Shown here one piece after another: positions 229 to 3,957 of a stretch of DNA of 34,098 nt. Under the pieces are notes generated by a model that did no database searches, was not told where the DNA came from, and worked only from the letters and a program-made list of their open reading frames with translations. Position 1 is the stretch's first letter. The number at the start of each line of letters is the position of its first letter. The translations under genes and the position numbers were made by a program. This DNA is from Frankiaceae bacterium (GTDB taxonomy: Bacteria > Actinomycetota > Actinomycetes > JAFAQI01), in NCBI GenBank assembly GCA_025929365.1, contig JAICMG010000015.1:1-34098 (forward strand). The letters are read 5' to 3'.

Positions 229-555
229 TCAGCGGCCGACGGCCTTCTCCAGCTGTGCCTTGGTCATCGACGAGCGGCCCTCGATGCCCTTGCGCTTGGC
301 CTCGGCGTAGAGCTGCTCCTTGGTGCGCCCTCCGGCGCCCTTGTGGGAGCGCAGCCCGCCGCGCCGCCCGGACGAGAGGTCCTGGGTCGACGTGCGACTT
401 GCCTGCTTGGCCTCGCCCGCCCGTGCCCGCTCCTTGTTGACCGTTCGCGCCGCGATCTCCTCGGCGGTGTCCTCCGTCTCGCCGCGCTGCTCGAGGCCTT
501 CCTTGATGTGCTCGTACTGGCGCTCCCGCTTGCGGGACCACGCGCGGATGGGCAT
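229..555 (-). CDS. Small Lys/Arg-rich protein with Rho-N/SAP-like C-terminus
   Basis: A protein of 108 residues with many charged residues. Residues 8-50 contain a helical KRERQYEHIKEGL and AEEIAARTVNKERARAGE pattern. From memory this is typical of a short actinobacterial family often labelled plasmid stabilisation protein, a label without functional proof. Residues 76-107 form a Rho-N/SAP/HeH-like helix-extended-helix motif: TKEQLYAEAKRKGIEGRSSM followed by TKAQLEKAV. Such motifs usually bind nucleic acid. The same motif ends Ku, encoded divergently 158 bp away. The ATG is supported by GGAGGA at 565-570, 9 nt upstream. I infer a DNA-associated role, possibly linked to end joining; the function is unknown. 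Confidence 0.8.
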   Translation of the reverse strand: MPIRAWSRKRERQYEHIKEGLEQRGETEDTAEEIAARTVNKERARAGEAKQASRTSTQDLSSGRRGGLRSHKGAGGRTKEQLYAEAKRKGIEGRSSMTKAQLEKAVGR

Positions 556-713
556 CGGGTTCGCTCCTCCTGGAGGTCGAGGGAAGTGGGTACGGCCTAC
601 CCGTCCCCTTTTGGGGGTATTCGCGGACTTAGCCGCCGGTTGCGTGCTGCCGATGGGTAGGAGAGGCTTGTGACAGGAGCCGCTTCGTGCGGCGTGTGAG
701 CAAGGAGTAGTCG

Positions 714-1727
714 ATGCCGCGCGCGTTGTGGTCCGGGGTGCTGACCTTCGGGCTCGTGAACGTTCCCGTCGGGCTGTTCAGCGCGACCAGCGAGAAGTCG
801 ATTCGCTTCAACCAGCTCAACAAGGCCACCGGCAACCGGGTGCGCTATCGGAAGGTCGACGAGGCCACCGGTGACGAGGTGCCGACCAGCGAGATCGTCA
901 GCGGCTACGACACCGGGGACGACGAGTACGTGATGGTCGAGCGCGAGGAGCTCGCCTCCGTCGCGCCCGGTCGCTCGGAGCTCATGGAGATCAGCGACTT
1001 CGTCGACCTCGCCGACATCGATCCGATCTTCTATCGGCAGACCTACTACCTCGCGCCGCGTGGAAAGGGCGCCGACCGCGCCTACGCGCTGCTTCGCCGC
1101 GCCATGATCGACACCGGCAAGGCCGGCGTGGCGACGATGGTCATGCGTGATCGCGAGCACCTCGTCGTACTCCGTCCGTCGGGCAAGGCACTTGTGGTCG
1201 AGTCGCTGTATTTCGCCGATGAGATCCGCGCCGCCGAGGACGTGCTGGGTGACCTGCCGGACGACAGCGCCTTCGCAGACCGTGAGCTGAAGATCGCCGA
1301 GCAGCTCATCGACTCCCTCGCCGTCGAGTGGGAGCCCGAGCGCTACCACGACACCTACCGGGAGCGGGTCCAGGAGCTCATCGAGTCGAAGCGCGAAGGC
1401 CGCAAGGTCGTCACCGCGAAGAAGGCCCCACGCACCAACGTCATCGACCTGATGGCTGCCCTCGAGGAATCCATCGCGGCCCGCGGCGGGCGTGGCGCAA
1501 AGGGGGAGCGGTCCGGCAAGGGGACGAAGGACGCGAAAAAGGAGGTCTCCAGTGGCGAGGCCGCCGCCGCGGATGGCGTCCCCGCGGAGTACGCCGAGAT
1601 GTCCAAGGCCGAGCTCCTCAAGCTCGCCGCGCGTGCCGACGTCAAGGGTCGCTCGTCGATGAGCAAGGACGAGCTCGCGGCGGCAGTCGCGGCAGCCCCG
1701 AAGCCGCGACGCTCCAAGGCGTCCTAG
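714..1727 (+). CDS. ku: Ku protein, non-homologous end joining
   Basis: A protein of 337 residues opening with MPRALWSGVLTFGLVNVPV, the characteristic start of bacterial Ku. Bacterial Ku homodimers thread onto double-strand break ends and recruit LigD. The core beta-barrel/bridge region covers about residues 1-255 and includes TYYLAPRGKG (110-119). After it comes a Lys/Gly-rich linker (258-280) and a C-terminal extension with a Rho-N/SAP-like motif at about 294-325 containing KGRSSMSKDEL. Extended lysine-rich tails of Ku bind DNA or LigD in other actinobacteria. AAGGAG precedes the ATG by about 7 nt. The gene converges on the LigD polymerase gene, and their stops share CTAG at 1724-1727. Family assignment is secure; the role of the tail is inferred. 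Confidence 0.95.
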   Translation: MPRALWSGVLTFGLVNVPVGLFSATSEKSIRFNQLNKATGNRVRYRKVDEATGDEVPTSEIVSGYDTGDDEYVMVEREELASVAPGRSELMEISDFVDLADIDPIFYRQTYYLAPRGKGADRAYALLRRAMIDTGKAGVATMVMRDREHLVVLRPSGKALVVESLYFADEIRAAEDVLGDLPDDSAFADRELKIAEQLIDSLAVEWEPERYHDTYRERVQELIESKREGRKVVTAKKAPRTNVIDLMAALEESIAARGGRGAKGERSGKGTKDAKKEVSSGEAAAADGVPAEYAEMSKAELLKLAARADVKGRSSMSKDELAAAVAAAPKPRRSKAS

Positions 1728-2656
1728 CGCTTCTTCGCGCTCTTGGCCGGCTTCGCGGCGAGCAGCGGCGCGAAGAGGTCGCCGTGCTTGTCGAGTCGCT
1801 CGATGACCTCACCGGCAAGGAACCTCAGCGTCGACGGGTCGTCCTGTTTCGCGCAGTCCGCGACCTCGTCCCACGTCACCGGCGTGGACGCCGTCGGCTG
1901 CGGCGTCGCGCGGAGCGAGTAGACGGCAACCGTGGTCTTCGCCGGATGGTTCTGGCTCCAGTCGATGAGGACCTTGCCGTTTCGTCGTGCCTTCTCCTGT
2001 GTGCTCACCACGTGCTCGGGGTGGGACTCCTCGAGCTCTTGCGCCAGCCCGAAGACCTCGTCCCTGATGTCGTCCCATGTCGCGCCCGGCATCGGTGCGT
2101 AGACCTGAAGGCCCTTCGACCCGCTGGTCTTGGCGACCGCATGGTCACCGGCGGTGAGCTTGTCGCGAGCCAGCAGCGCGATGCGGCAGCACTCGACGAT
2201 CGTCGTGCCGGGACCCGGGTCGAGGTCGATCACGAGGTGGTCGGGGTTCGTGGGCGGCGTCTGCTTGCCCTCGCGGTGCCACAGCGGCACGTGTAGCTCC
2301 AGCGCGGCGAGGTTGGCGGCCCACAACAAGCTCGGCCGGTCGCCGATGAGGGGATAGTCGATCGAGTCGCGTCCACCGCGACCGGAACGCGAGGACACCT
2401 TCATCGACTGCATCCACTCGGGTGCGTGCCGCGGCAGCTGCTTTTCGAAGAAGGTCTCGCCGCTGACGCCGTCGGGGAAGCGGCGAAACGTCACGGGGCG
2501 CTTCACCAGGTGCGGCACCATCGCGTCCGCGACCTTGGCGTAGTAGTCGAGGACCTCCGCCTTCGTGAAGTGAGCATCCGGGTAGAGCACCTTGTCGAGG
2601 TTCGACAACATGAGGGTGCGCCCGTCGATCTCGGCCGCGACCTTCTGGCTACTCAC
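1724..2656 (-). CDS. ligD: LigD-type polymerase/primase (stand-alone POL domain)
   Basis: A protein of 310 residues starting at GTG 2654-2656 and overlapping the end of the upstream ligase gene by 8 bases (GTGAGTAG). It matches the archaeo-eukaryotic primase-like polymerase domain of LigD, which fills gaps and adds nucleotides at broken ends during end joining. Visible motifs are LSNLDKVLYPDAHFTKAEV near the N-terminus, RPVTFRRFPDGVSGETFFEK, the metal-binding VIDLDPG, the nucleotide-contacting TSGSKGLQVY (many relatives have His where this has Gln), and VLIDWSQN. The tail is basic (AKSAKKR). There is no phosphoesterase or ligase domain in this chain, unlike the fused mycobacterial LigD. The tight overlap suggests translational coupling with the ligase. 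Confidence 0.93.
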   Translation of the reverse strand: MSSQKVAAEIDGRTLMLSNLDKVLYPDAHFTKAEVLDYYAKVADAMVPHLVKRPVTFRRFPDGVSGETFFEKQLPRHAPEWMQSMKVSSRSGRGGRDSIDYPLIGDRPSLLWAANLAALELHVPLWHREGKQTPPTNPDHLVIDLDPGPGTTIVECCRIALLARDKLTAGDHAVAKTSGSKGLQVYAPMPGATWDDIRDEVFGLAQELEESHPEHVVSTQEKARRNGKVLIDWSQNHPAKTTVAVYSLRATPQPTASTPVTWDEVADCAKQDDPSTLRFLAGEVIERLDKHGDLFAPLLAAKPAKSAKKR

Positions 2657-3611
2657 GGCGGATGTCCTTCGGTGCTTTGTCGGGACGTACGCCGCGCCAG
2701 CTCGGATGACGCAGGCGACCGTCGCCGGTCCACTCGCCGAACTGCACCTCGCCGACGATCTCAGGCCGCACATAGTGCGCGTTCCGTCGGTCCTTTGCAT
2801 CGATCGGCCCGTTGAACGGCGAGCCGTCGACGGCCAGCTTTCCCAACAGCTTGTAGAGCCGGGCACGCGTGCGCTCGTCGAAGCCGGTGCCGACCTTGCC
2901 CGCGTAGGCGAGCCCGTCACCTTCCGGAAGGCCGAGCAGCAGCGCGCCGAACGTGTCCGAGAGCCTTCCTTGCCCGGGCAGCCAGCCGCCGATCACCACC
3001 TCCTGCGTGCGCATCGCCTTGACCTTGATCCAGTCGGTGCTGCGCGCACCCGGCCGGTACGCCGAGGCGCGGCGCTTCGCGACGACACCCTCGAGACCGT
3101 TGCTGCTGGCCGCCTGGAACACGTCGGCACCCGACACGTCGCGGTAGGCCTGGCTCGTCACCACCCCGTCAACATCGAGGTCGAGGGTTTCGAGCTGGGC
3201 TCGCCGCTCGTCGTACGTCTGCGTGAACAGGTCCTTGCCGTCGAGGTGAAGGAGGTCGAAGACGATGTAGGACGCAGCAACCTCGCCGGCGCGCCTGGCG
3301 ATCATGGCCACGTTGGTGAGGTTGAGCCGCTGCTGGAGCAGACCGAAACGCGGTACGCCGGATGGGTCGAGCGCGACGAGCTCGCCGTCGAGCGTGAGCG
3401 CCCTGCCCGCGCAGGACTGCCGCAGCGCGGCGAGCTCGGGAAACATCGGTGTGAGGTCCTGGTTGTTGCGGCTTCGTGCCTCGAGCTCGCCGTTGCCGTC
3501 CAGGCGCGTGATGGCGCGGATGCCGTCCCACTTCGGCTCGTAGGCCCACCCGTCGTCGGAGGAGGGGAGCGTGCCGGCAGTCGCGAGCATCGGGGCGACC
3601 GGCGGCGGCAT
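2649..3611 (-). CDS. ATP-dependent DNA ligase (LigD-type ligase domain)
   Basis: A protein of 320 residues from ATG 3609-3611; GTG codons at 3629 and 3623 are possible alternative starts. It seals nicks with ATP. Motif I is EPKWDGIRAI, with the probable AMP-accepting lysine at residue 27. DGELVALDPSGVPRFG, FDLLHLDGKDL and LEGVVAKRRASAY match the later nucleotidyltransferase motifs, and WIKVKAMRTQEVVIGG leads into the OB-fold. The C-terminal GEVQFGEWTGDGRLRHPSWRG is typical of LigD/LigC ligases. It is the first gene of a two-gene unit with the polymerase, the reverse of the POL-then-ligase order in fused LigD. The divergent small gene at 3673 limits how far upstream the start can lie. Confidence 0.92.
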   Translation of the reverse strand: MPPPVAPMLATAGTLPSSDDGWAYEPKWDGIRAITRLDGNGELEARSRNNQDLTPMFPELAALRQSCAGRALTLDGELVALDPSGVPRFGLLQQRLNLTNVAMIARRAGEVAASYIVFDLLHLDGKDLFTQTYDERRAQLETLDLDVDGVVTSQAYRDVSGADVFQAASSNGLEGVVAKRRASAYRPGARSTDWIKVKAMRTQEVVIGGWLPGQGRLSDTFGALLLGLPEGDGLAYAGKVGTGFDERTRARLYKLLGKLAVDGSPFNGPIDAKDRRNAHYVRPEIVGEVQFGEWTGDGRLRHPSWRGVRPDKAPKDIRRE

Positions 3612-3672
3612 CCGCCTCGACACAGGCACATCCCCGACGTTAGAGGACGACCTGCTCGGGTACCCGTCAAGA

Positions 3673-3957
3673 ATGCCAACGACCGCGCGGCCGAGCACGG
3701 GGGGCACAAAAGCCGGGGGAGAGTGGGAGCGGATACGAGGCCGCCTCGCCTCGCACTTCCCGGAGCTGAGCGAGGACGACATCGTTGCCGAGCTCGTCCA
3801 CGCTCACGATTCCGTCGACTACGTCGGGATGCCCGAGGAGGAGCGCCTCGAGCTCATCGAGTTCATGGCGCGGTACGGCCTGCTCGTGCGTGCCGGGCGC
3901 GTCTCGCCCAGTGACCGGCTCGACCCGGAGCGCCACGCCAGTCCGAGGCGCCGCTAG
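3673..3957 (+). CDS. Small protein of unknown function
   Basis: A protein of 94 residues from ATG 3673; an in-frame earlier start at 3571 would overlap the ligase gene. Residues 17-72 look like a compact helical bundle: WERIRGRLASHFPELSEDDI, then VAELVHAHDSVDYVG and EERLELIEFMARYGLLVRAG. The pattern is distantly reminiscent of short actinobacterial three-helix dimerisation proteins, but I do not recognise a family with confidence. The tail is Arg-rich (SPRRR). It is divergent from the end-joining ligase and converges on the DinB-like gene, with both stops on one CTAG (3954-3957). No function can be assigned. Confidence 0.65.
   Translation: MPTTARPSTGGTKAGGEWERIRGRLASHFPELSEDDIVAELVHAHDSVDYVGMPEEERLELIEFMARYGLLVRAGRVSPSDRLDPERHASPRRR

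Follow-up and report, generated by a model that had tools for sequence, protein, structure and literature searches.

A C-terminal tail module shared by a bacterial Ku and the small protein encoded divergently beside it

What does it mean when a bacterial Ku and the small basic protein encoded next to it end in similar tails? The question is raised by a stretch of 34,098 nucleotides of DNA from a Frankiaceae bacterium (contig JAICMG010000015.1), here called the window. The likeness could reflect descent of one tail from the other, a joint role of the two proteins at DNA breaks, or the use of a module that is common to many proteins. At a probability of roughly 70%, we read the small protein as a general-stress protein, probably one that binds nucleic acid, which lies in a stress/repair neighborhood and is not a duplicate of the Ku tail.

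The gene pair and its tails

The small gene and ku are divergent, with a gap of 158 bp between them. The features on which the argument depends are as follows.

229..555, minus strand: small gene, an ORF for a basic protein of 108 residues (pI about 10.4)
232..327, minus strand: HEH/Rho_N-like tail of the small protein, residues 77-108 (A1 tail profile 70.8 bits, Rho_N 17.1 bits)
714..1727, plus strand: Ku, 337 residues (TIGR02772 309 bits, PF02735 171 bits)
1599..1694, plus strand: HEH/Rho_N-like tail of Ku, residues 296-327 (A1 tail profile 59.9 bits, Rho_N 19.4 bits)
1727..2680, minus strand: LigD primase-polymerase stretch, an NHEJ partner given for context (PF21686 270 bits; position 2680 is not a start codon)
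2649..3782, minus strand: ATP-dependent DNA ligase of the LigD type, an NHEJ partner given for context (PF01068 and PF04679)

The A1 tail profile was built with both window tails included. The TIGR02772 score of Ku lies well above the curated cut-off of 150 bits and identifies it as a bacterial Ku. The polymerase and ligase of LigD are two separate ORFs in the window, and neither of them gave a match to a phosphoesterase domain.

The first-pass annotation had proposed that the two proteins share a C-terminal motif, and this is borne out: the 32-residue tails align without gaps and are identical at 13 of 32 positions, although the residue numbers given at first were one or two off. The BLOSUM62 score of the pair is 54, which is above every one of 20,000 shuffles (mean -11.5, s.d. 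10.4, maximum 37), and the match is therefore not due to chance. It had also been said that the match is far closer than that between random Rho-N motifs. This holds when the comparison is with the genome's single canonical Rho_N hit, a frame of 566 amino acids on contig C178 which, judging from its length, we take to be Rho and which the A1 profile did not pick up; it fails against other tails of the GRSxM kind, among which the pair scores below average. Both window tails fall below the gathering cut-off of 24.9 bits for Pfam Rho_N (PF07498), a cut-off that some other tails of the collected set pass. The two tails thus resemble Rho_N/SAP/HEH domains in their predicted fold type and in their weak Rho_N matches, but differ as a GRSxM-K-x-x-L subfamily. 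From these alignments, homology between the tail of the small protein and that of Ku is supported, as is their separation from the canonical Rho_N hit of the genome.

A Ku protein with such a tail is not new, since Aravind and Koonin, as cited in PMC5124664 and PMC11936186, predicted an HEH/SAP end on a Streptomyces Ku in 2001. PMC5124664 describes nucleic-acid binding by the SAP domain as an assumption and adds that the domain could change how KuB binds. The window Ku resembles KuB of Streptomyces (SCO0601) in having a Ku core, a basic linker and an HEH/SAP-like end of about 35 residues; its own HEH module follows a basic stretch (residues from 251 on, pI 9.7). It differs in belonging to another lineage and in being divergently paired with a small HEH gene. 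S. coelicolor is the sole prokaryotic exception according to PMC11936186; the present analysis turned up HEH-tailed Ku, a minority of all Ku, across several phylum families.

Nor is the tail confined to these two proteins. In the window's own genome the A1 profile finds three tails, the third on a protein of about 90-115 amino acids on contig C184 (L005, 1480-1827, minus strand) that belongs to a basic family of about 90 residues (KQVxAAKRNVKKAQ...) seen in several families of the phylum. Across 149 phylum genomes the profile matched 89 times at E<=1e-6, in 50 of the genomes; 22 of these matches were left out of the fetched regions, and the 40 regions that were fetched were read together with the loci already in hand. 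The tails so read were 22 of the small family, 11 of Ku and 42 of other proteins, namely 13 ChaB, 6 of the DUF7218 type, 11 of the basic family of about 90 residues and 12 others, among which are hemerythrin-type proteins (one confirmed) and a DUF4383 protein. Pfam confirms the ChaB identity in 13 of 13 cases and the DUF7218 type in the 2 of 2 that were scanned, the remaining labels coming from reading the sequences; the N-terminal part of the 90-residue family gave no Pfam match of its own in the two members scanned, and the rest were likewise labeled by reading. The tail is therefore a promiscuous HEH module, carried by many otherwise unrelated actinobacterial proteins.

ChaB (PF06150) and DUF7218 (PF23855) proteins end in the same kind of HEH tail as the window pair, and both were considered as homologs of the small protein. 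The N-terminal parts of ChaB and the small protein do not match (hhalign probability 0.3%), so that ChaB was rejected, and DUF7218 gave at most a hint (26.5%). Among the 13 genomes of the order, no ChaB match was found.

Candidate stress promoters and the association with Ku

The gap between the two genes contains the following candidate promoter elements.

597..622, minus strand: SigB-type promoter-like element of the small gene, GNNT-N16-GGGTAG, with the hexamer (-10) starting 47 nt from the ATG
638..660, plus strand: possible SigB-type element upstream of Ku, GGTT-N13-GGGTAG, with the hexamer (-10) starting 59 nt from the ATG; weak, from a single sequence

SigB-type promoters of S. coelicolor include GGGTAT, GGGTAC and GGGTAG with GTTT or GNNT on the 5' side (PMC8346170), and the same arrangement (GTTT/GNNT, spacer, GGGTA) is found upstream of the window's small gene, where it sits in a 14-bp block, GGACGGGTAGGCCG, that is identical in the genus mate. 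The signal extends to the family: GGGTA[CGT] occurs upstream of the small gene in 40 of 81 regions, the window included, while dinucleotide shuffles gave a mean of 5.9 and a maximum of 13, and random windows of the same loci contain it in 3.7% of cases. The hexamer is absent from the other 41 regions. When G-N-TT-N12-16 was required to precede it, 13 of 81 regions still matched (shuffle mean 0.1). A first scan with a stricter two-box pattern had found 8 of 80 (0.44 expected) and, with a variant, 3 of 80 (0.34 expected). A sigma factor of the SigB/F/G type scores over the cut-off in all 13 genomes of the order.

Other HEH-tailed families share this signature in part. The hexamer precedes 9 of 29 of their genes (1.03 expected) and is missing from 20, a count that excludes one of 30 proteins for want of an anchor and in which the start codon is uncertain for some; under stricter anchors the figure had been 8 of 20 (1.67 expected). 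By family the figures are 2/13 for ChaB, 4/6 for the DUF7218 type and 3/10 for the 90-residue family, so ChaB alone contributes little to the signal. A shared stress promoter of Ku was also considered, and here there is a weak excess at best. Of 40 regions upstream of Ku, 5 have the hexamer, the window's being one of them, against 3.3 from single-base shuffles or about 1.3 from random windows (3.2%; P 0.009 against the latter), in a set that was not random, 30 of its members being the best-scoring of the phylum sample and one of these 30 lacking a start. The Ku-side element of the window is not kept in the genus mate, where no GGGTA[CGT] lies within 150 nt of ku.

How closely, then, is the small gene tied to Ku? 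In the order sample of 13 genomes, the small gene is present in 12 and Ku in 11, and the window genome and its genus mate are the only two in which they adjoin, with about 190 bp separating the matches. Among 53 genomes holding both genes, drawn from the order, phylum and class samples and with 35 of the 53 pairs on separate contigs, the genes are direct neighbors in 2, both within the genus; they are adjacent in none of the 51 others, the nearest of which has them 1.7 kb apart (G052). A search from the side of the small protein agrees: in the flanks fetched around the best 80 of 514 relatives, kept from named genomes (at most 5 kb, with 59 of 80 loci at full length), Ku was found twice, both times in Kribbella, and LigD was not found. 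There is thus no conserved tight pairing of the small gene with ku or ligD.

A looser association is seen. Ku is present in 22 of 22 phylum genomes that encode a full-length small protein and in 54 of 127 others (Fisher P 9e-8, uncorrected for ancestry), a comparison that left out nine genomes whose small-protein matches were all weak or partial, with a best E of 1e-15 or worse; with these included, Ku is present in 30 of 31. In the class sample, which shares some genomes with the phylum sample, the counts are 32 of 34 and 68 of 94 (Fisher P 0.008, uncorrected for ancestry). Genome size and shared ancestry may be the cause of this co-occurrence. The two genes also lie near each other more often than random placement predicts: outside the genus, 9 of 51 genomes have them no more than 40 kb apart (1.6 expected, P 2e-5, the nine including the same-genus pairs G170/G189 and G129/G049), 4 of 51 no more than 10 kb apart (0.42 expected) and 1 of 51 no more than 2 kb apart (0.1 expected, P 0.09). 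The early hunch of a link with Ku therefore keeps some weight, as co-occurrence and as linkage within 40 kb, but tight adjacency was seen only in the genus.

Lying between Ku and the small gene in one of the linked genomes, G170, are ORFs for a SigB/F/G sigma factor (L157 11884-12747; 248 bits on TIGR02980, cut-off 234) and for a topoisomerase IB (L157 10855-11880), both on the minus strand. ORFs resembling both occur in L158, and one resembling the sigma factor in L160.

The association could be taken to mean that the small protein is an accessory NHEJ factor, acting with Ku and LigD at breaks, with the shared tail loading both proteins onto the same DNA or partner. The co-occurrence, the linkage within 40 kb and the LigD parts that adjoin Ku in the window all point in this direction. 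Against it, two genomes with the small gene have no Ku that could be found (G003 and G010, 91% and 86% complete), and Ku frequently lacks the tail where the small gene is present: of nine small-positive order genomes with a complete Ku end, five have the tail on Ku and four lack it. With tight adjacency seen only in the genus and the stress hexamer rare upstream of Ku, we consider such a role unlikely. Within the order as a whole, the 11 Ku ends comprise 5 with an HEH tail, 5 that are Lys-rich without one and 1 cut by a contig end. Two forms of Ku are discernible in this one order, an MRSIWKG type with a Lys/Ala-rich tail (L086, L088-L091) and an MARA[LM]W/MPRALW type with an HEH tail (L001, L092-L095).

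Kinship of the tails and identity of the small family

The first-pass annotation raised the possibility that the small gene arose by duplication of the Ku tail, or that Ku acquired its tail from the small family, and it asked for a phylogeny of the motif and a count of adjacent genes. True homology of the tails and the adjacency in the genus fit such a history, but the kinship of the tails does not. Other Ku tails resemble the window Ku tail most (mean identity 62%), followed by tails of other proteins (47%), and only then by those of the small family (42%). Its neighbor's tail ranks 58th of 74 in a search with the Ku tail, and in the reverse search Ku ranks 67th of 74. In a tail tree, which took 74 of the 75 tails over 32 columns and is poorly resolved, all 11 Ku tails and 9 others fall on one side, and all 21 small-family tails and 33 others on the opposite side (SH-aLRT 92, not starred); the two window tails are thus on different sides with other families between them, at weak support. 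Furthermore, conservation of the small family, tail included, reaches distant phylum members and some records labeled Chloroflexi, far beyond the genus in which the genes were seen to adjoin. The Ku tail and the small-protein tail have no special kinship to each other; ranking and tree together argue that each is a copy of a common module and not of the other, and duplication in either direction is highly improbable.

The small protein is otherwise an ordinary member of an actinobacterial family annotated as "plasmid stabilization protein", which the class sample contains in 34 of 128 genomes and the phylum sample in 22 of 149. It is 67-81% identical to 25 aligned relatives, with 40 invariant columns in the 26 sequences, and it has the invariant motifs of the family (KRERQY-HI, AARTVNK-RA, RGG, GRS-M-K). 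An AlphaFold2 model (mean pLDDT 74.9, pTM 0.41) predicts a helical hairpin (residues 8-23 and 28-45), linker segments of low confidence (52-58 and 60-73) and two tail helices (79-89 and 99-107). The tail blocks of residues 81-108 reach a mean pLDDT of 82-90, so that, for the small protein, the two-helix arrangement of HEH/SAP domains is predicted. A PDB fold search with the model gave no match at E below 1, the last of its 26 rows being the RNA-binding domain of Rho, aligned over 32 columns at E 9.7. Searched against PDB sequences, the tail profile had a Rho as its best match (E 8e-4), and the whole small protein had no match up to E 1. PHROGs gave weak matches to the tail. No paper on the family was found in the open PMC subset.

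Two copies of the small protein turned up in unexpected records. One, 75% identical (L028, 5001-5324), is in a record labeled Aquabacterium, a betaproteobacterium, and would represent transfer or contamination. The other, 62% identical, is in MT835479.1 (10296-10610), an unannotated "Bacteriophage sp." record from human fecal samples that may be a bacterial contig.

The idea behind the database name, that the protein is a plasmid stabilizer or part of a toxin-antitoxin system, is scarcely credible: the name appears in 10 of 21 matching plasmid records (the rest have no feature or annotation), but those 21 are all that match among 72,556 at E<=1e-5, 10 of them are over one megabase, the gene is on the main contig in the single-contig genomes G035, G170 and G207, neither Pfam nor NCBIfam gave a toxin or antitoxin match beyond a chance-level RepA (E 0.83), and no conserved partner was found, since among ORFs of at least 90 amino acids no family besides the small gene and a frame overlapping it occurs in more than 8 of 80 loci. 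The name is thus without support in this analysis. As a neighbor, a kinase-like family, so labeled by reading, recurs in 8 of those loci, topoisomerase IB recurs in 7, with Pfam confirmation for one of them, and one more family recurs in 6.

A general-stress reading of the pair

The preferred reading, that of a general-stress protein with a module used by many others, can be put together as follows. The tail would be a putative nucleic-acid-binding HEH (helix-extension-helix, SAP/Rho_N-like) module. Among the proteins that carry it, several are small and seem to be under stress control; it is also present on a minority of Ku proteins. The small protein, with its predicted helical hairpin, flexible basic linker (RRGGLRS) and HEH tail, would be expressed from a SigB-type promoter and would probably coat or bridge DNA (or RNA) under stress, in the manner of a minor nucleoid protein. 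On Ku, at the end of the flexible C-terminal arm, the tail probably adds DNA affinity; any help to NHEJ is an inference. The two genes share one intergenic region in this genus, and they may adjoin because both sit in stress/repair neighborhoods of some genomes. What deserves to be retained is that the small family, and some other HEH-tailed proteins with it, show a stress-promoter signature, and that the small family is loosely associated with Ku.

A bolder extension, which we offer tentatively and regard as rather doubtful, is that these proteins form an HEH-tail regulon. The small family, ChaB, DUF7218, the 90-residue family, hemerythrins and, in some lineages, Ku would each have acquired the same module. 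Switched on to a considerable extent by SigB-type sigma factors, they would come together on a single target (compacted DNA or RNA) during desiccation or osmotic stress and so prepare the chromosome for end joining.

The general-stress reading suggests a testable role for a widespread and probably misnamed protein family. The analysis also shows that the tail of some bacterial Ku proteins belongs to a module that small proteins bearing stress promoters have too. If the shared target is real, general stress would be linked to end joining in actinobacteria.
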